Shown here in pieces: positions 1,926 through 37,865 of a DNA stretch of 38,700 nucleotides; position 1 is the first letter of the stretch; each line of letters opens with the position of its first letter. Position numbers and translations under genes: made by a program. The notes under the pieces were generated by a model, which saw only the letters and a program-made list of their open reading frames with translations, was not told the origin of the DNA and made no database searches. The stretch lies in NCBI GenBank assembly GCA_025350045.1, contig JANXYM010000011.1, forward strand, positions 1-38,700, read 5' to 3'. This stretch comes from Methanomicrobiales archaeon (GTDB lineage Archaea; Halobacteriota; Methanomicrobia; Methanomicrobiales; Methanospirillaceae).

Positions 1926-2124
1926 CCCTCGGGTAATCCGGTGAAATAACCCATCAACGGGATTTCCGGCTCTCCTTTTTCTCCCCTCTTTTTTATTCCT
2001 GCCCTTCCATTGTACACCTTTTATGAACAATTCAGCACTCTCAAATATGTTCACAATGAATAAAACAGAATAGTAATATTTTTCCTCTTTGCGGGAAACA
2101 AAAAAAAGTACGGAATGTTTTACC

Positions 2125-4005
2125 ATGGATTTTAACGAGGCTGAACAGAGACGGGTACTATTCTTAACCCGGTTACGATCGGGCCAGCTCACTCCGGTCC
2201 AGTTTGCCAAGGCCCTGACCAGCCTGCAAGTGACGGATGGCCGGGGAACGATCTGGCAGCCCAACCCTTCCGGGGAAGGCTGGATATTCTGGACCGGTTC
2301 CGTGTGGCAGCCGGGGACGCTCCCCGCGATCTCCGGACCGGGCACAGCAGCAGGAACCAGTGGCCAGAAATCAGCCAAGGATTTCAACGAGTTCAAATCT
2401 TCTCTGATGACCGTGGATGAGTTCAAGAAGATGTCCAAGGATGTCCCGCTTGCAAAGCGGCCGCAGAAATGGTGGGATCTCCTCTCCATCCTTGGCGGGG
2501 TTGTTGCTGCTATCATCTGGTTCCTCTACGGGGGAATCCGGAGTGGGCGTGAAGGATTTGACCTCATCACCCCGCTCCTTATGATTGCAATTCCGGTCAT
2601 CCTCGTATGGTTCAGGGCAGATATCGATCAGATCCTCCTTCCCCTCCAGCCACCCCGGAAAAAGATCCCGCGGCTTATTCTTATCGGGCTGGGTATCGCT
2701 GTCCCCTTTGTTACCGCCTGGATCCTCTATAATCTTGTGCATATCAGCCAGTACCCCCTGATGCAGGCAAATCTGGTAATCGGGGTTATGGCTTCCTATG
2801 CACTGGTTCGCGATCCCGTGCCGGCAAAGGGAAACTCCCCCCGGAATTCAGGACCCCTTTCACCGTCATCGGTCGGCATTATTTTCTTTGTCATGCTGGC
2901 ATCGCTGCTGGCCATCCCGGTCATGGCCGATGACTGTTCCCGGGATGTCCTGAATGCCCAGGACTGCCTCCGGACCAACGGGTTTGCAGAGACCATGGCC
3001 GGTGCAACGGCTGCCGGTCTTGGTGTTCTCGTAAATGGCCCGATTATCCTTGGCGGGATTCTTTCCGGTGGATCCGGCGCTGCCGGTGGTGCCGGAGGAG
3101 CAGGGAGCGGTGCCGGATCTGGTGGATCTTCCGGTGGATCAGGCAAAATGTACGGTACCGGGACAAAGGGTGATCCGTTCCGCGATGGCAATACATTGGG
3201 AGAAGTCGGCCCGGACGGGAAGTTTGTCCCCTATGCTGAAAATGCCAACCTGCCCCCGAGAGTCTATGGCGACGGGACCTCGTCGACTCCCTACTCGAAT
3301 TCACAACAGCCCGTGTACGATCCTTCACCTACTCCCCCGGATGTACCGCCTCAGCCGCCGGAAGCCCCGGTTCCGCCACCTGAACCTCCGGTTCCACCAG
3401 TACCCCCAGTGCCTCCGGTACCTCCGGTTCCACCAGTACCCCCAGTGCCTCCGGTTCCACCAGTACCCCCAGTGCCTCCGGTTCCACCAGTACCCCCAGT
3501 GCCTCCGGTACCTCCGGTTCAACCGGTACCCCCCGTGCCTCCAGGCCTCACTCCCTTTGAGCGGCAGTGGTGGATGGACAAGCGTGACCGTATTGACGAT
3601 GCTCTGGGAGCATTAAGAGCCCAGCGGCAGCACAAGAAATGGCTGGAAAATACCGGGGTACCAAACGCACTGAAAGTGAGGACCGCCCAATGGCTGCGTG
3701 CAGCATTCAAAGGGGGAAAAGACTCGGTTGAAGCCATCACGGATCCCAAGGGCAAACTATGGGATGGTACGAAAAAGAAACTGGGCATTGAGACCCCGCT
3801 TGACAAAGCCAAGGATAAAATATTCGGCAAAGATGTTGAGATGAACGAGGTTATCAAGGATTTCAAGGAAGCCGATGAAAAATACCGTTCATTAAAAAGC
3901 GAACTCGATAGTATGCCAAGTGAAGAAGACATGGCGCAGACTTTCCGCGATCTCCTTCACCAGGCTGCCGAGGCCAACGGTAAGCTTCAGGCAGGAGGAA
4001 AATAA
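2125..4005 (+). CDS. Multi-pass membrane protein with glycine-rich, VPP-repeat and helical tail regions
   Basis: The ATG at 2125 is preferred over an upstream TTG at 2089, because it begins a conserved-looking N-terminal module and gives 626 residues. Residues 1-70 resemble a module common in bacterial and archaeal envelope proteins (LRSGQLTPVQF, then DGRGTIWQPNP, then GWIFWTGSVWQPG), seen here as paired aromatic/Gly motifs. About five or six hydrophobic segments follow (roughly residues 117-140, 146-165, 184-207, 213-230, 248-268 and 288-312). After VMADDC there are two cysteines, then a Gly/Ser-rich stretch (310-345), a VPP-repeat linker (about 397-475) and a charged helical tail (476-626). 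The next gene begins directly after this stop, which implies translational coupling. It could be a surface-anchored scaffold, but the function is unknown. Confidence 0.85.
   Translation: MDFNEAEQRRVLFLTRLRSGQLTPVQFAKALTSLQVTDGRGTIWQPNPSGEGWIFWTGSVWQPGTLPAISGPGTAAGTSGQKSAKDFNEFKSSLMTVDEFKKMSKDVPLAKRPQKWWDLLSILGGVVAAIIWFLYGGIRSGREGFDLITPLLMIAIPVILVWFRADIDQILLPLQPPRKKIPRLILIGLGIAVPFVTAWILYNLVHISQYPLMQANLVIGVMASYALVRDPVPAKGNSPRNSGPLSPSSVGIIFFVMLASLLAIPVMADDCSRDVLNAQDCLRTNGFAETMAGATAAGLGVLVNGPIILGGILSGGSGAAGGAGGAGSGAGSGGSSGGSGKMYGTGTKGDPFRDGNTLGEVGPDGKFVPYAENANLPPRVYGDGTSSTPYSNSQQPVYDPSPTPPDVPPQPPEAPVPPPEPPVPPVPPVPPVPPVPPVPPVPPVPPVPPVPPVPPVPPVPPVPPVQPVPPVPPGLTPFERQWWMDKRDRIDDALGALRAQRQHKKWLENTGVPNALKVRTAQWLRAAFKGGKDSVEAITDPKGKLWDGTKKKLGIETPLDKAKDKIFGKDVEMNEVIKDFKEADEKYRSLKSELDSMPSEEDMAQTFRDLLHQAAEANGKLQAGGK
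3391..3543 (+). repeat. 27-bp in-frame tandem repeat encoding VPP triplets
   Basis: Four identical 27-bp units occupy 3391-3417, 3427-3453, 3454-3480 and 3481-3507. Units 1 and 2 are separated by a 9-bp spacer that encodes VPP. After unit 4 comes another 9-bp spacer and a degenerate fifth unit at 3517-3543. All units keep the reading frame and encode VPPVPPVPP. The near-perfect nucleotide identity, with no synonymous drift, indicates recent slippage or recombination, so the linker length is probably variable between strains. Confidence 0.95.
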
Positions 4006-13372: not shown

Positions 13373-14806
13373 ATGGATACATACCCAATAATCCTCGGTG
13401 GAGTGAAGAAACAGACTGAAGAGATCGTAAGCGTGCGATTCCCATTTACGGGGGAAGTCTACGCGCAGGTCTGCCAGGCAAGCACGCTGGATCTCAAAGC
13501 GGCAGTCACCGAGGCGGTGAAGGGTTTTGAGCCCACGAGAAAACTTTCATCGGGGGCCCGGGGACAGATCCTCACCCGGCTTGCCGATGAGATCCACCGG
13601 AGAGCGGACGAACTCGCCGAAGTACTGGTGATGGAGGGGGGCAAGACCAGGAAGTTTGCTATCAGTGAGGTTGCCCGGGCGGAGGTTACCGTCAGGACCT
13701 CTGCTGAGGAAGCAAAGCGGATCTACGGGGAGATCATCCCGCTGGACTGGACTGATGACACCGCAGGACGCACCGGATTCCTCCAGCGCTTCCCGCTTGG
13801 CCCGGTTGTCGGGATTGTGCCGTTCAACTTCCCTCTTAATCTCGCGTGCCACAAACTGGCGCCGGCTATCGCGTCGGGCAACTCCATCATCCTCAAACCC
13901 GCATCATCGACCCCGATCTCCAGCCTGCTGCTGGGCGAGATGGCACTTGCCGCGGGCATGCCCTCCGCAGCGATCAGCGTGGTTCCCTGCGCTGGCGGTC
14001 GCGCAGAACAACTGGCCCGGGATCCCCGGGTGGCATACCTTTCATTCACCGGCAGCTGCGCGGTCGGCTGGCACCTCAGAGAGATTGCGGGCAGGAAGAA
14101 GGTGGCGCTCGAACTCGGCGGGAATGCGGCGGTGATCGTGCACGAGGATGCAAACCTCGACTATGCAGCACAGCGGATTGCCACCGGCGGGTTCATCAAC
14201 GCGGGGCAGGTCTGCATCTCGGTACAGCGGGTGCTCATCCACAGGCCGGTCTACGAACGTGTGGCAGAAAAGATCCTTGCAGCGGTCAATGCGCTCAGAA
14301 CAGGAGATCCACGGGATCCGGCCACGGATGTAGGGCCGATGATCGACCGGATCAAGGCAGAGGAGGCGTACCGGAAGGTGCAGGAAGCCGTAAAGCAGGG
14401 GGCCCGGATCCTGACCGGTGGCACGCTTGAAGAGACGATGTTTGCACCTACCATCCTTACGGATACCACGCCGGCGATGCGGGTGAACAAAGAGGAAGTA
14501 TTTGCTCCCGTCCTGTCCCTTATCCCCTATGATGATTTCCCGGAAGCGATCCGGATCGCAAACGCGGGGGAATACGGGCTGCAGATGGGCATCTTCACCC
14601 AGAACATCAACCGGGCCATGCAGGCCTTTGCCGATATGGATGTCGGCGGCGTGATCGTGAACGACATCCCGACATTCCGTGTCGACCAGATGCCCTATGG
14701 CGGGGCGAAAGGATCGGGGCTCGGCCGGGAAGGACCGCGGTACGCGATCGAGGAGATGAGTGAGCTCCGGCTGATGGTGATTAACCGGGCGGGCGGGGTG
14801 GAGTGA
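13373..14806 (+). CDS. NAD(P)-dependent aldehyde dehydrogenase (possibly lactaldehyde dehydrogenase, CofA-like)
   Basis: A 477-residue member of the ALDH superfamily, which oxidises aldehydes to acids or acyl derivatives with NAD(P). The catalytic cysteine is C281 in GQVCIS and the general-base glutamate is E247 in LELGGN. The nucleotide-binding motifs PFNFPLNL, SIILKPASSTP and SFTGSCAVG are intact. The C-terminal YGGAKGSGLGREG is the normal family end. The start has a good GGAGTGA site a few bases upstream. Methanogens use a close family member (CofA) to make lactate for coenzyme F420, and this sequence has the compact 470-residue form of that group. Non-phosphorylating glyceraldehyde-3-phosphate dehydrogenase is an alternative, so I give no symbol. 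The gene appears monocistronic. Confidence 0.9.
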   Translation: MDTYPIILGGVKKQTEEIVSVRFPFTGEVYAQVCQASTLDLKAAVTEAVKGFEPTRKLSSGARGQILTRLADEIHRRADELAEVLVMEGGKTRKFAISEVARAEVTVRTSAEEAKRIYGEIIPLDWTDDTAGRTGFLQRFPLGPVVGIVPFNFPLNLACHKLAPAIASGNSIILKPASSTPISSLLLGEMALAAGMPSAAISVVPCAGGRAEQLARDPRVAYLSFTGSCAVGWHLREIAGRKKVALELGGNAAVIVHEDANLDYAAQRIATGGFINAGQVCISVQRVLIHRPVYERVAEKILAAVNALRTGDPRDPATDVGPMIDRIKAEEAYRKVQEAVKQGARILTGGTLEETMFAPTILTDTTPAMRVNKEEVFAPVLSLIPYDDFPEAIRIANAGEYGLQMGIFTQNINRAMQAFADMDVGGVIVNDIPTFRVDQMPYGGAKGSGLGREGPRYAIEEMSELRLMVINRAGGVE

Positions 14807-14870
14807 ACCCCTTTTTCTTTTCATGAGTGATTAGTCTGGTAGTATCCTGAACCTCTTTTAGCCAGCAATC
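14807..14870. other. Short spacer with T-rich terminator region after the aldehyde dehydrogenase
   Basis: T-rich stretch at about 14813-14821 directly after the stop codon, suitable for transcription termination. The repeat array starts at 14871. Confidence 0.4.
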
Positions 14871-15462
14871 TTTCAATCAAACCCTGCTCTAAAAATTTTG
14901 CCGGACCGTGCCTGAAAAATTTCACAGCAGACTTTGATTGGGAAATTTTCATCGAATCGTAATTTGGAATTTTCAACCGGACCTTGCTGAAATAATTTCA
15001 ATCAAAGCTTGATGTTAAATTTTCAACCGGCCCCATGACCCTGCTTAATTTTTTTTAATCGCGATCATGATCGTGTTTGAAACCTTTTTGCGGATCAACT
15101 GCACTTTGATTCTCATTTCTCAACCGCGATCACAAGCCCGGCTGTTCAATCACAAAACCTGTTCCGGGAACACTTTCATTTTCAGACGTTGGCTGCACCC
15201 GGTTTTTCAACTTGACCACACTTAAAAAACGATCCGCAGATCAATCAAACCCTGGTTTCAGATTTTTGATTGACTCCTCTATCTCTGCTCAAATCTTTTC
15301 CATTGCGATCACGATCTCGTTTGAAAAAGGGTAATGAATCAATCAAACCTTGATTTCGAATTTTCACCCAGACCCTGCTCTAAAATTTTTCATCAAACCT
15401 TGCCTGAAAAAAAACAATCACACTCTGCTTGAAATTTTTTAACCAGACTTTGATTGAAAAAG
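14871..15462. repeat. AT-rich degenerate tandem array, about 25-bp units
   Basis: About 590 bases made of irregular units of 24-30 bases, with some longer ones. A typical unit begins with a T-tract and CAA, has an ACCTTGCTT-like core, and closes with an A-tract. Examples are units at 14871-14895, 14896-14919, 14920-14945, 14946-14969, 14970-14995, 14996-15019 and 15020-15048, and again at 15361-15385 and later. Recurrent words are CAATCAAACCTTGA, CAACCGGACC and GCGATCA. A 12-bp palindrome (CGATCATGATCG) lies at 15062-15073, with a related word at 15304-15318. No reading frame is maintained. It is not a CRISPR, because neither repeats nor spacers are constant. Confidence 0.75.
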
Positions 15463-15682
15463 GTGAAATAAAGTACTTACTATTTCATGAACCCCTGCTG
15501 GAAATCCCGCGACCTTTCGTGCCCGGTTAACCGGATTTGCAGGTTACAGAATTTGGCTGTCTTGCATCTGAATACTTATTTGGGGATTTGGGGTTTCCGC
15601 TCGTACCATGCCCCACTGTTCTGCATCTTTCATAAACCCTCCACAATCTTTATCCCCCCGCATTCCTAAGCCAGACATTGGC
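15463..15682. promoter_or_regulatory. Upstream region of the glucan phosphorylase gene
   Basis: It contains a TATA-like AATACTTATTT at about 15569-15579. Standard archaeal spacing from it gives a start near 15604. That would produce a leader of about 80 bases if translation begins at GTG 15683, or a leaderless message if the ATG at 15608 is used. Confidence 0.35.
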
Positions 15683-17836
15683 GTGAAAACAATACGCAAC
15701 CAGTATACCCACATCCCGTTCCGGCTGTCCGGGCTTCTCGATCTGGCCTATAACCTCTGGTGGAGCTGGCACCCCGAGGTACGGATCCTTTTCAAGCAGT
15801 TGAACCAGGAAGCCTGGAAGGCGAGCATCCATAACCCGGTCAGGATGCTGCGGGACATCCCGGCTGAATTCTTAGAAGCTGCCGAGCACGATGCAGAGTA
15901 CCTCCGCAGGTACGATATCATCATGAACCGCTTCCGGCGGTATCTCAATTCCCGGTCCGGCTGGTTTAATGAACAGTATCCCGGGAAGGATGCCCTGACT
16001 ATTGCTTATTTTTCCGCGGAGTACGGGCTGCACCACTCTCTTCCCTTCTATGCCGGGGGGCTCGGGTTCCTTGCGGGCGACCACCTCAAGGAATGCAGTG
16101 ACCTGGGGGTACCGCTCGTTGCGGTAGGATTCATGTACTCGGAGGGATATCTTCACCAGCACATCCAGCCGGATGGCTGGCAGACCGGCTCTAAGGAGTG
16201 CCTCGACCGTGACGCAACACCGGTAAAAAGGGTGCTGAACTGGGACGGGGATCATCTTGTCATCCGGGTGCCCTATGTTGAACCGGCGATCTATGTAGCC
16301 GTCTGGAAGGTGGATGTCGGGAAAGTCCCGCTCTACCTGCTCGACACCGACATCCCGTTGAATGACGGGGCGAGCAGGCGCATATCCTCCAGCCTGTACA
16401 TGAGCGATCGCGAAGAGCGTCTCCGGCAGGAGATCGTGCTCGGTATCGGAGGCCGCAAGGTGCTCCGGACGCTGGGAATCGAGTACTCGGCAGTACATCT
16501 CAACGAAGGTCATCCCGCCTTTGCCCTGCTGGAACGGATCCGCGAACGTATGGAGCACGGCGTGCCCTATGACGAGGCGGTACGGCAGGTGCAGGGAACT
16601 ACTGTTTTTACTACGCACACGCCGGTGGCTGCAGGCCATGATGTCTTCTCACCCGAGCTCATGGACAAGTATTTTGGCACGTATTACCGGGAACTCGGCA
16701 TTGACCGGGATCAGTTCCTCGCGCTCGGAAAGCACCCCCATTACCCTGACAACGGGTTCAACATGACGGTCCTTGCCCTGCGGCTCTCCGGGTATCACAA
16801 CGCGGTCTCGAAAAAACACGGGGAGGTTACCCGGCAGATGTGGAAGTGTCTCTGGCAGGATCGCCCCGAAGACGGGATCCCCATCGATGCGATAACCAAC
16901 GGGGTTCACCTGCCGACATGGATGAACCCCCGTGTTGAAGATCTCTTAGATTCCCATTTTTATTACGTGGCTCCCAACTGGCAACAGGAGCACGACGATG
17001 AGACGATCTGGAACCTTGTCGATGAGATCCCGGATAAGGCACTCTGGGACCTGCATCTCCAGCTCAAGAACAAGCTCATCAACCGGATCCGGGAGCGCAA
17101 GCGGGTGAAGTGGACAAAAGAACACAACGAGATCCCCAACTTCGTCACCGAAGGGCTCTTTTTGAACTCCTCTGTCCTCACCATCGGGTTTGCCCGGCGT
17201 TTTGCCACCTACAAACGGGCAGACCTGATCTTTTACGATCTCGAGCGGCTCAAAAAGATCGTCTCAAACCAGTGGAGACCGGTCCAGATCATCTTTGCCG
17301 GCAAGGCCCACCAGTCGGATGATGAGGGAAAATGCATACTCCAGAAATGCTACCAGATCGCCCGGCAGCCGGAGTTTGAAGGGAGGATCGCTATCGTGGA
17401 AGATTACAGTGAACAGAGTGCCCAGTACCTGGTTCACGGGGTTGATGTCTGGCTCAATAACCCCCTGCCTCCTATGGAAGCCTGCGGGACGAGCGGCATG
17501 AAGGCCGGCATCAACGGCGTGCTGAACCTGAGTATCCCCGACGGCTGGTGGCGGGAAGGGTACAATGGCCGGAATGGCTGGACATTTGGTGCAGAACCCT
17601 GCGAGGGAAACCGGGATGCTGCGGATGCGGGGGCGCTCTACGATATTCTTGAGCGGGAGGTTATCCCGCTCTATTACAGCAGCTCGCTCGATGCGATTCC
17701 CCACGGGTGGGTGAAGATGATGAAGGAGTCGATAAAGAGCATTGCACCCCGGTTCTGTGCCCGGCGGATGGTCAAGGATTATGTAAATAATTATTACCCG
17801 AAGATGGTCACATCAGCGGATGCCGGGCGGCAGTGA
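15683..17836 (+). CDS. glgP: Alpha-glucan (glycogen/starch/maltodextrin) phosphorylase, GT35
   Basis: The enzyme removes glucose-1-phosphate from the ends of alpha-1,4-glucans by phosphorolysis, using pyridoxal phosphate. I place the start at GTG 15683 (KTIRNQYTHIPFRLSGLLDL), where family similarity begins, giving 717 residues. An in-frame ATG at 15608 would add 25 residues. The order is the shorter prokaryotic form: NLWWSWHPE near the N-terminus, YFSAEYGLHHSLPFYAGGLG, HLNEGHPAFALLERIR, TTHTPVAAGHD, and the PLP region ACGTSGMKAGINGVLNLS with the lysine at residue 607. GFARRFATYKRADL is also conserved. It lies alone between the AT-rich array and a hairpin repeat with a T-tract, so it appears monocistronic. 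It probably mobilises stored glycogen. Confidence 0.95.
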   Translation: MKTIRNQYTHIPFRLSGLLDLAYNLWWSWHPEVRILFKQLNQEAWKASIHNPVRMLRDIPAEFLEAAEHDAEYLRRYDIIMNRFRRYLNSRSGWFNEQYPGKDALTIAYFSAEYGLHHSLPFYAGGLGFLAGDHLKECSDLGVPLVAVGFMYSEGYLHQHIQPDGWQTGSKECLDRDATPVKRVLNWDGDHLVIRVPYVEPAIYVAVWKVDVGKVPLYLLDTDIPLNDGASRRISSSLYMSDREERLRQEIVLGIGGRKVLRTLGIEYSAVHLNEGHPAFALLERIRERMEHGVPYDEAVRQVQGTTVFTTHTPVAAGHDVFSPELMDKYFGTYYRELGIDRDQFLALGKHPHYPDNGFNMTVLALRLSGYHNAVSKKHGEVTRQMWKCLWQDRPEDGIPIDAITNGVHLPTWMNPRVEDLLDSHFYYVAPNWQQEHDDETIWNLVDEIPDKALWDLHLQLKNKLINRIRERKRVKWTKEHNEIPNFVTEGLFLNSSVLTIGFARRFATYKRADLIFYDLERLKKIVSNQWRPVQIIFAGKAHQSDDEGKCILQKCYQIARQPEFEGRIAIVEDYSEQSAQYLVHGVDVWLNNPLPPMEACGTSGMKAGINGVLNLSIPDGWWREGYNGRNGWTFGAEPCEGNRDAADAGALYDILEREVIPLYYSSSLDAIPHGWVKMMKESIKSIAPRFCARRMVKDYVNNYYPKMVTSADAGRQ

Positions 17837-28518: not shown

Positions 28519-28566
28519 GGGGCCCTGCCGGGTGAGGTTTTTCTCATCATAGATATTTTATCCGAA

Positions 28567-28599
28567 TTGACAACCTGATTGACAATCGAATTGACAACC
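28567..28599. repeat. Three short direct repeats, 12-bp period
   Basis: TTGACAACC, TTGACAATC and TTGACAACC begin at 28567, 28579 and 28591, exactly 12 bases apart. Iteron-like spacing could be a protein-binding site, although 12 bases is a little more than one helical turn. Confidence 0.6.
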
Positions 28600-36911: not shown

Positions 36912-37865
36912 CTATGGTTCTTGTTGTCTTTCGATATACGGTCTAAAAAACGCTATAATTGACATTAATATAAACGCCATACTAATTGAAAAAGTGAAAT
37001 TAATAATTTCAGGAAGTATGAACCAAAAAATAGCCCCTGATACCAACCCTAACACCAAACAAATTCCACTGAACAAACGTTCTTTTTCCCTATTTCCTTT
37101 GAGACTAAATAAATATCTTAACATGAGGAACATTACGACGATAATCTCAGCGATATAAACCGTTATGTAAAAGATTAATAATCCTGTTGCCAAAAATTCT
37201 CCGAATGAATTGGAGACAAGGATGACGAAAAACATTAACAAATAAGCAAATGGAATTATGAATAAAAAAATGGTCAAATCTTTAATAACTTCTATAATCG
37301 CTCTTTTTTTATTATCACTTTTAGAATGTTTATAAATTCGAATATAGGTAAATGCATCAAATAAAACAACACAACCAATTACAAGAAATAATACTGAAGA
37401 TAAAAACGAAAAAAATTTTGTGAGTTTATCATTAGTTTGTTGATTTGGAGTTTTCGAAATCTCATTAGAAGATAAATTGCTTGTACAGTTTGAATTAGAG
37501 GGTGTTTTTTCACACTTTATTTGGAAAGAATTAGAAGAATTATTTGTAAATACCATGTTGGAGTTATCCGTGGATGAAAAATTTCCGAAACAATTTTGTT
37601 CTATTTTTTGGTTTTGACATCCAGTCTGAACAGTAAAATTCGATAACGAATTAGTTGAGGGGTTGGAAAAGTTTAGCAAGGCCGGGTTATTAAAAAAAAC
37701 TGCTATAATTAAAAAAACACCCATAATTGCGAACAATCTTTGATTATTTAATAAAAAGGCTCTTAGAGCATAGTCTGATTCAACATTTAAAAAGTGACGA
37801 CATTTGCAACATTTATCGGCATCATCAGTATTCGGCCAATCACAATAGGGGCATCGTTTCATCAC
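36912..37865 (-). CDS. Zinc-ribbon multi-pass membrane protein, AT-rich
   Basis: A 317-residue protein that begins with a zinc ribbon (CPYCDWPNTDDADKCCKCRH). One hydrophobic helix follows (LFAIMGVFLIIAVFF), then a Ser/Asn-rich loop (about residues 65-135) and five further helices in the C-terminal half. The start could be residue 1 or 2 (two consecutive ATG). The gene is clearly richer in A and T than the rest of the window and has many AAA/AAT/TTT codons, unlike its neighbours, so it was probably acquired from another genome. I know no name for the family. The layout of ribbon first and membrane helices later recalls the zinc-ribbon proteins at the start of the window, but there is no sequence similarity beyond the ribbon. 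Confidence 0.75.
   Translation of the reverse strand: MMKRCPYCDWPNTDDADKCCKCRHFLNVESDYALRAFLLNNQRLFAIMGVFLIIAVFFNNPALLNFSNPSTNSLSNFTVQTGCQNQKIEQNCFGNFSSTDNSNMVFTNNSSNSFQIKCEKTPSNSNCTSNLSSNEISKTPNQQTNDKLTKFFSFLSSVLFLVIGCVVLFDAFTYIRIYKHSKSDNKKRAIIEVIKDLTIFLFIIPFAYLLMFFVILVSNSFGEFLATGLLIFYITVYIAEIIVVMFLMLRYLFSLKGNREKERLFSGICLVLGLVSGAIFWFILPEIINFTFSISMAFILMSIIAFFRPYIERQQEP

Follow-up and report, generated by a model that had tools for sequence, protein, structure and literature searches.

Two short inverted-repeat modules with constrained bases, together with a spacer module, form arrays that are spread over intergenic gaps of Methanoregula chromosomes, in part occupy positions shared between species, and in two cases lie at both breakpoints of a chromosomal inversion. 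One of these arrays is found at positions 14871 to 15462 of the window, the whole stretch of 38,700 nucleotides analyzed here (contig JANXYM010000011.1 of a Methanomicrobiales archaeon genome, G000). Binding by a sequence-specific protein likely explains the conserved letters and the phase of the units, a reading supported by the 25-base phase seen in the arrays of two species. More tentatively, the sequence patterns suggest that the arrays could be sites for a putative dimeric DNA-binding protein, possibly one that organizes the chromosome. Chromosome organization and segregation in euryarchaea are still poorly understood, and these arrays, which have a consensus, positions in common between species, and a sister group almost devoid of them, are concrete DNA baits that could lead directly to the protein.

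The periodicity of the array in the window was evaluated by autocorrelation, which peaked at lags of 75, 25, and 50 bases (z of 5.4, 4.8, and 3.8, respectively). Of 1,000 dinucleotide shuffles, 99% stayed at or below a z of 3.77 and none exceeded 4.5 at any lag; therefore, the degenerate 25-base array described in the initial annotation is real, and the shuffled control of the same composition failed to reproduce the signal at lags 75 and 25. The A/T-content spectrum was weaker, with its top peaks at 25.9 and 23.4 bases lying above 95% of 300 shuffles and below the best shuffle, and with ordinary power at exactly 25.0 bases; moreover, Tandem Repeats Finder, at a minimum score of 30, reported no row within this stretch. 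The G+C content of the array was 39%, versus 54% for the window, and no open reading frame of at least 80 codons overlaps it, in agreement with the noncoding nature assigned to it. The initial annotation had also set the array apart from a CRISPR, a microsatellite, and a coding repeat, and all three were excluded; a CRISPR array requires near-identical repeats and unique spacers, whereas the units of this array are divergent and contiguous.

As seen with a weight matrix, 13 units of a first module, A, are recognizable between 14870 and 15505, and 11 of these have a neighbor 24 to 26 bases away. All the A and B elements of the array are on the forward strand. It opens with six A units (consensus TTTTCAAYCRRACCYTGATTGAAAA) at 14870 to 15019, starting at 14870, 14894, 14920, 14945, 14970, and 14995, with scores of 12.1 to 27.4. 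These are followed by a near-palindromic B element with the core GCGATCATGATCGTG at 15052 to 15083, detected by a second matrix and matching the B pattern without mismatch at 15061 to 15082. A spacer of about 120 bases (15117 to 15237), read directly, stands in the place of a third module, C; it has no A or B match and, by eye, has TTTCAGACGT-like letters in common with an array that this genome carries on contig C6. Then come a single A unit at 15238 to 15262 (score of 17.2), a second B element with the core GCGATCACGATCTCG at 15296 to 15327 (matrix; B pattern with one mismatch), and five A units at exact 25-base steps from 15336 to 15460 (starts at 15336, 15361, 15386, 15411, and 15436; scores of 22.9 to 35.4). 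The two B pattern matches, at 15061 and 15305, are 244 bases apart. A weak last A unit (score of 12.3) lies at 15481 to 15505, and the array consequently runs past the end at 15462 first given for it. The earlier description of about twenty irregular units filling almost 600 bases holds for the irregular series itself; the count comes down to about 13 recognizable A units, the series is interrupted twice by the GATC-rich palindrome B, and the spacer takes up a further part of the stretch.

The anatomy of these modules is clearest in two other genomes, G018 and G021, each assembled as one contig, which hold 10 and 8 array sites, respectively. Module A is a 25-base unit with inverted half-sites, TTTCAAYC-N7-GRTTGAAA, in which the left half, TTTTCAA(C/T)C, is by consensus the reverse complement of the right half. 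Module B is a 32-base palindrome (consensus ATTTCAATCGCGATCATGATCGCGATTGAAAA) that carries the outer half-sites of A around a GATC-rich center, 14 bases apart, and is often followed by GATCCGGATC. Module C is a 66-base spacer in which two conserved blocks, TCCGTCGTGAA and TTAACTTTT, enclose a variable stretch of about 20 bases (46 copies were found, of which 36 were aligned). In both genomes these modules add up to a very regular higher-order repeat of seven A units of 25 bases, 40 bases for B, and 66 for C, that is, 281 bases. Accordingly, 22 of 25 B-to-B intervals measured 278 to 282 bases, the remaining three being 231, 256, and 90 bases; this count covers the 16 of 18 arrays that have at least two B elements, with two B matches located 58 bases after another B set aside. 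The arrays in the genome of the window show greater degeneracy and a varying long period. The arrays are about 300 to 800 bases long and intergenic, with the long common unit and the many noncoding tandem sites of a prokaryotic dispersed noncoding satellite.

The module counts are well above those of shuffled sequence. A matrix for A, grown from 32 loci (36 fetched, minus four that overlapped), picked out 321 units with scores of 9 or more, versus 9 in one shuffle per N-free locus (88,052 bases), the matrix having been trained on the same loci. In 34 loci plus the window, 422 A and 60 B matches were obtained, whereas shuffled sequence totaling 445,238 bases gave 5 and 0, respectively; both matrices were again trained on those loci.

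Next, the constraint on the modules was evaluated in a comparison of G018 with G021 (flanks differing by 4.8%) that covered 117 A units and 20 B elements. Substitutions affected 66 of 936 core sites versus 308 of 1,989 other sites of the same A units (8 core and 17 other positions), so that the core bases change at less than half the rate of the remaining ones, a contrast that is partly built in, since the core positions were chosen from the consensus. Position C9 of A was changed in 3 of the 117 units and the adjacent position 8 in 29, and a step of this size between neighboring positions is hard to obtain by mutation alone. For B, 16 of 32 columns showed no change across the 20 copies. Positions 8 and 11 of A covary strongly (0.435 bits in G018, G021, and G000), with CCGG, GCAG, TCAA, and TCGA dominating and T8-G11 rare. 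At loci of some relatives (L106, L110, L127, L128, L136, L144, and L155, among the matches listed and by eye), B is conserved and the A core next to it has drifted toward GATC-rich sequences (for example, CAATCGACTTGTGATT and AATCGGATCGCGATT), which looks as if A and its putative reader had changed together.

Protein binding had been one of the two options offered in the initial annotation, and it is also the best reading of the present patterns. One sequence-specific, probably homodimeric protein of this Methanoregula clade would dock at dense clusters of sites. Each A unit would offer it two inverted half-sites (TTTCAAYC) 7 bases apart, and each B element would offer the same half-sites 14 bases apart, around the GATC-rich palindrome. 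Repetition every 25 bases over 300 to 800 bases could then allow cooperative loading and the formation of a large nucleoprotein body in the intergenic gap.

The genomic distribution of the arrays is restricted. When the array of the window was the query of a blastn-type search, its own genome yielded 29 additional matches, several of which belong to the same array; the motif search over the genome that had been suggested earlier thus returned further copies. Across 60 genomes, 22 had a match; all 22 are among the 36 genomes of this genus, and the 24 genomes belonging to other genera had none. A sequence-only profile of the A-B-A-A arrangement, built on 46 sequences, matched 29 of 39 Methanoregula genomes at an E value of 0.01 or less, one of them, G027, by a single match (E value of 0.005). 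With stricter filters, 15 of 120 genomes of the order had a match: 7 of the 9 listed from the genus and 8 of the 111 others, the latter with one marginal match each (E values of 5e-4 to 0.01). Among 84,980 named species genomes, the exact B pattern matched 55 stretches, 52 of which are titled Methanoregula or Methanomicrobiales archaeon, while three are bacterial contigs with one match each. No sign of a mobile element was found: no IMG/VR contig had an exact match to two array patterns, plasmid and phage records gave no match to one 461-base array piece, and no transposase family was found among the neighboring proteins scanned. Among open-license papers, judged by title and opening abstract, no description of these arrays was found.

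In a midpoint-rooted Orc1 tree of the 37 genomes in which Orc1 was found, some nodes of which are weakly supported, arrays are present in 24 of the 25 genomes of one clade, the exception being the small genome G016, with three weak matches. In the other clade (12 genomes), nine have no match, two have one or two, and G005 has nine. The matches of G005 and G022, which lie inside this otherwise nearly array-free clade, may reflect transfer or contamination of draft genomes. The tree does not include G003 (no array match) and G007 (12 matches), in which Orc1 had no match.

Chromosome organization or segregation would be the most likely task of the putative protein, because there are about 8 to 21 array sites per chromosome (a very rough figure) and, in four of the six genomes tested, they are overrepresented close to the main orc1 gene. 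In this analysis, orc1 was used as a stand-in for the replication origin, and sites within 150 kb of it were counted. G018 has five of its 10 sites near orc1 (0.95 expected; P = 0.001). The corresponding numbers are 4 of 8 for G021 (P = 0.006; 4 of 13, P = 0.04, when five degenerate sites are added), 5 of 16 for G064 (1.7 expected; P = 0.02), and 6 of 21 for G060 (2.4 expected; P = 0.03), where the 493-kb contig bearing orc1 holds 10 of the 21 sites (4.0 expected; P = 0.003). In the other two genomes the numbers were 2 of 12 (G029; 0.9 expected; P = 0.23) and 0 of 6 listed sites (G033), with one short array outside that list located 18 kb from orc1. The overrepresentation is moderate, and G018, G021, G064, and G029 are related and have some sites in common, so the tests are not independent. 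The tests of G060 and G029 comprised only B matches with at most two mismatches. Omitted from the tests were three-mismatch B matches at 435 and 1992 kb and weak matches at 171 and 1444 kb in G018, a B pattern match at 1951 kb in G021, and three-mismatch matches at 187, 592, and 1226 kb in G033, of which that at 187 kb is a real short array. G018 also has a 2.04-Mb stretch without a strong site (P = 0.001); the corresponding gap in G021 vanishes once degenerate sites are counted. No rule was found for the orientation of the arrays relative to orc1, about 6 of 10 in G018 pointing away from it as judged by hand.

The arrays were also found at the ends of inversions. Between G018 and G021, an inversion of about 65 kb has both ends in arrays, near 967 and 1033 kb, with the flanks matching left to left, right to left reversed, left to right reversed, and right to right. 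The same flank pattern was observed between G018 and G064 for the arrays at 884 and 967 kb, which bound an inverted segment measuring 83 kb in G018 and 71 kb in G064. This second inversion contains orc1, and the gene lies on opposite strands in G018 and G064, as expected for an inversion. Arrays of this kind thus seem to mark the breakpoints of inversions around the orc1 locus; on the proposed protein reading, breaking and rejoining at the arrays would be a by-product. A more speculative extension, which we consider unlikely on present evidence, is that the arrays are centromere-like or scaffold sites of a new archaeal chromosome-organizing system, in which a clade-specific dimer would polymerize on phased A and B modules, tie together regions near the origin, and hold inverted arrays close, giving rise to recurrent origin inversions.

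Array positions are in part shared between more distant genomes. When the 10 loci of G018 were compared with 15 loci from the genome of the window, five (L067, L070, L072, L073, and L076) adjoined the same genes, so that the check proposed in the initial annotation, similar arrays at matching sites in relatives, came out positive for half of them. Both flanks match at L076 and only one at the other four, in one case because a contig ends (L090). In two cases, the inversions between G018 and G021 or G064 account for one-sided synteny. The neighboring proteins of the shared loci are 49 to 89% identical, and at that distance intergenic DNA free of constraint would not be expected to align any more. 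The arrays suggest that a satellite-like higher-order repeat can stay at its position in a prokaryotic chromosome even as its sequence is replaced.

The main rival explanation is that the arrays are a dispensable, slowly spreading satellite, growing and shrinking by unequal recombination, homogenized locally, occasionally reaching new intergenic gaps, and persisting because it does little harm, a possibility that we regard as real but rather doubtful. In its favor, whole repeats are gained and lost, and copy number per site differs, between close species with flanks about 92 to 97% identical; of one G018 site, no more than a remnant is left in G021. Among 31 gaps with a called gene on both sides (counted by hand, those of G018 and G021 being partly identical), only 2 separate divergent genes, versus 11 that separate convergent ones, and the other clade is nearly without arrays. 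A dispensable satellite would, however, not readily account for the constrained core bases, for the positions held in common at 49 to 89% protein identity, for the retention of arrays by 24 of the 25 members of the clade, or for the lack of any transposase family among 30 neighboring proteins scanned with Pfam, 4 of which had no Pfam match.

The site in the window is a further point for the satellite. Its array lies between an aldehyde dehydrogenase gene (13373 to 14806, forward strand; Pfam Aldedh, E value of 1.8e-142) and an alpha-glucan phosphorylase gene (15683 to 17836, forward strand; Pfam DUF3417 and Phosphorylase), both outside the array; for the latter a GTG start is preferred, because five relatives align from there (residue 1). 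Of 18 genomes asked, 11 had a phosphorylase match, and in 5 of these 11 the same aldehyde dehydrogenase lies just before it (proteins about 90% identical). In all five, the gap between the genes is about 100 to 115 bases and contains no unit, versus 876 bases in the window. The association with the glucan phosphorylase gene suggested by the initial annotation is therefore not general; arrays at matching sites in relatives occur for other loci and are missing for this one. Since the genome of the window nests inside the group with the empty site in the Orc1 tree (with weak nodes), a single gain is simpler than several losses, and this array is probably a young site. The flanks at 14807 to 14872 and 15465 to 15636 had no other match among the loci compared. 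The closest stretches among these loci were two arrays, one in G004 beside unrelated genes, with 69% identity over 537 bases, and the one on C6 in the window's own genome, with 66% over 463 bases; at 66 to 69%, identity is too low for either to be a recent parent. The empty sites in relatives and the distance of the closest arrays indicate that arrays can appear at new sites. The young look of this array, together with the nearly array-free clade and the weak matches of G016, counts against a chromosome role. In another genome, G006, two A units (L206, 3913 to 4075) lie 265 and 403 bases past the far end of the phosphorylase match, and they may represent a degenerate array on the side of the gene opposite to that of the window's array.

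A second alternative, local control, would make each array a big operator or insulator of the adjoining genes. All of the 36 array clusters mapped are intergenic, with no called gene inside (gene calls made within this analysis), and phased dimer sites would suit a regulator. Moreover, module C, by eye, resembles an archaeal promoter when read backwards, with a near-constant AAAAGTTAA at a near-constant distance from TTCACGACGG. Nevertheless, the 30 neighboring proteins scanned (2 from the window) are ordinary and functionally unrelated; they include V-ATPase subunit I, Fic, ThiC, asparagine synthase, a Glu/Gln-type tRNA synthetase, phosphoglycerate dehydrogenase, RNase HII, a cation efflux protein, and one type I restriction subunit. 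Together with the 11 of 31 gaps between convergent genes and with the inversion of C relative to the A and B units in both aligned C modules of one other genome (L126 and L142), this makes local control improbable. The C6 array of the window's genome adjoins a type I restriction R subunit (L087, 2042 to 5128).

A noncoding RNA transcribed from the array, with the quasi-palindromes as hairpins, is very improbable. It would draw on the palindromic nature of A and B and on C as a possible promoter, but Watson-Crick pairs between the halves of A occurred at about the frequency expected for independent columns at all 12 pairs (397 units), RNAalifold predicted no pair on 46 aligned modules, and Rfam, at gathering scores, had no match in the window; a structured RNA was rejected on these grounds. 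Because the half-sites vary independently, without covariation, the arrays look like DNA read by a dimer rather than an RNA hairpin. The reading of the initial annotation, bending or a generic histone or Alba chromatin signal through phased A/T tracts, had the AT-rich units and the A and T tracts at a fixed 25-base step to recommend it, but it is hardly credible and did not hold up, since power at 10 to 11 bases stayed inside the shuffle range in the window and in 28 other arrays pooled, the tracts lacking a phase of about 10.5 bases, and since the conserved letters lie in the core and not solely in the tracts; because 25 bases are 2.4 turns, successive tracts face different sides of the helix.

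Among known systems, the nearest working analogue would be the SegB site map of the Sulfolobales which, in the part of the account used here, comprises tens of palindromes scattered along the chromosome that cluster close to segAB and an origin, leaving one large site-poor sector (PMC12284271). The Methanoregula arrays resemble it in their scattered palindromic sites and, in some genomes, in their clustering near orc1, with a site-poor sector in G018. They differ in being intergenic arrays of 300 to 800 bases, whereas the SegB sites are described there as 13-base motifs (TCTAGA-S-TCTAGA), mostly within genes (PMC12284271). No TCTAGA was found within 15,784 bases of array sequence, versus about 5 expected from composition; the SegB motif is thus absent, and membership is not claimed. 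In structure, the nearest analogue appears to be the transposed satellites of Methanocella conradii, which, like those of Leptospira interrogans, are presented in the portion of the source drawn on here as families of long-unit noncoding tandem repeats dispersed over the chromosome (PMC6749651). The long-unit noncoding tandem repeats at many chromosomal sites are the likeness; compared with that account, the Methanoregula arrays differ by nested periods of 25 and 281 bases, three modules, strong divergence around a constrained core, and cross-species positions.

Three further systems share some of these features. The parS clusters bound by ParB consist of inverted-repeat dimer sites, enriched at the origin, that are single and nearly invariant; the arrays have inverted-repeat sites (for a putative dimer) and, in some genomes, a moderate enrichment near orc1 in common with them, but their units are degenerate and lie in phased arrays. 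BIME/REP elements are likewise palindromic units clustered in intergenic gaps, whereas the arrays are mostly of single orientation, with an exact 25-base phase, a higher-order repeat, and no transposase family among the neighbors scanned. Eukaryotic higher-order satellites also nest short monomers within a longer repeat that carries a special binding box, but each Methanoregula array is below 1 kb, there are many sites per chromosome, and no kinetochore is known.

Other repeats were observed in the window apart from the array. Tandem repeats of 27 to 63 bases at 3375 to 3544 encode a PPVPPV-rich stretch within an open reading frame of 638 residues (2089 to 4005, forward strand), which by eye encodes a membrane protein. 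Short tandem repeats, of a 12-base CCGAATTGACAA unit and an 18-base A-rich unit, are found at 28562 to 28599 and 37693 to 37728.
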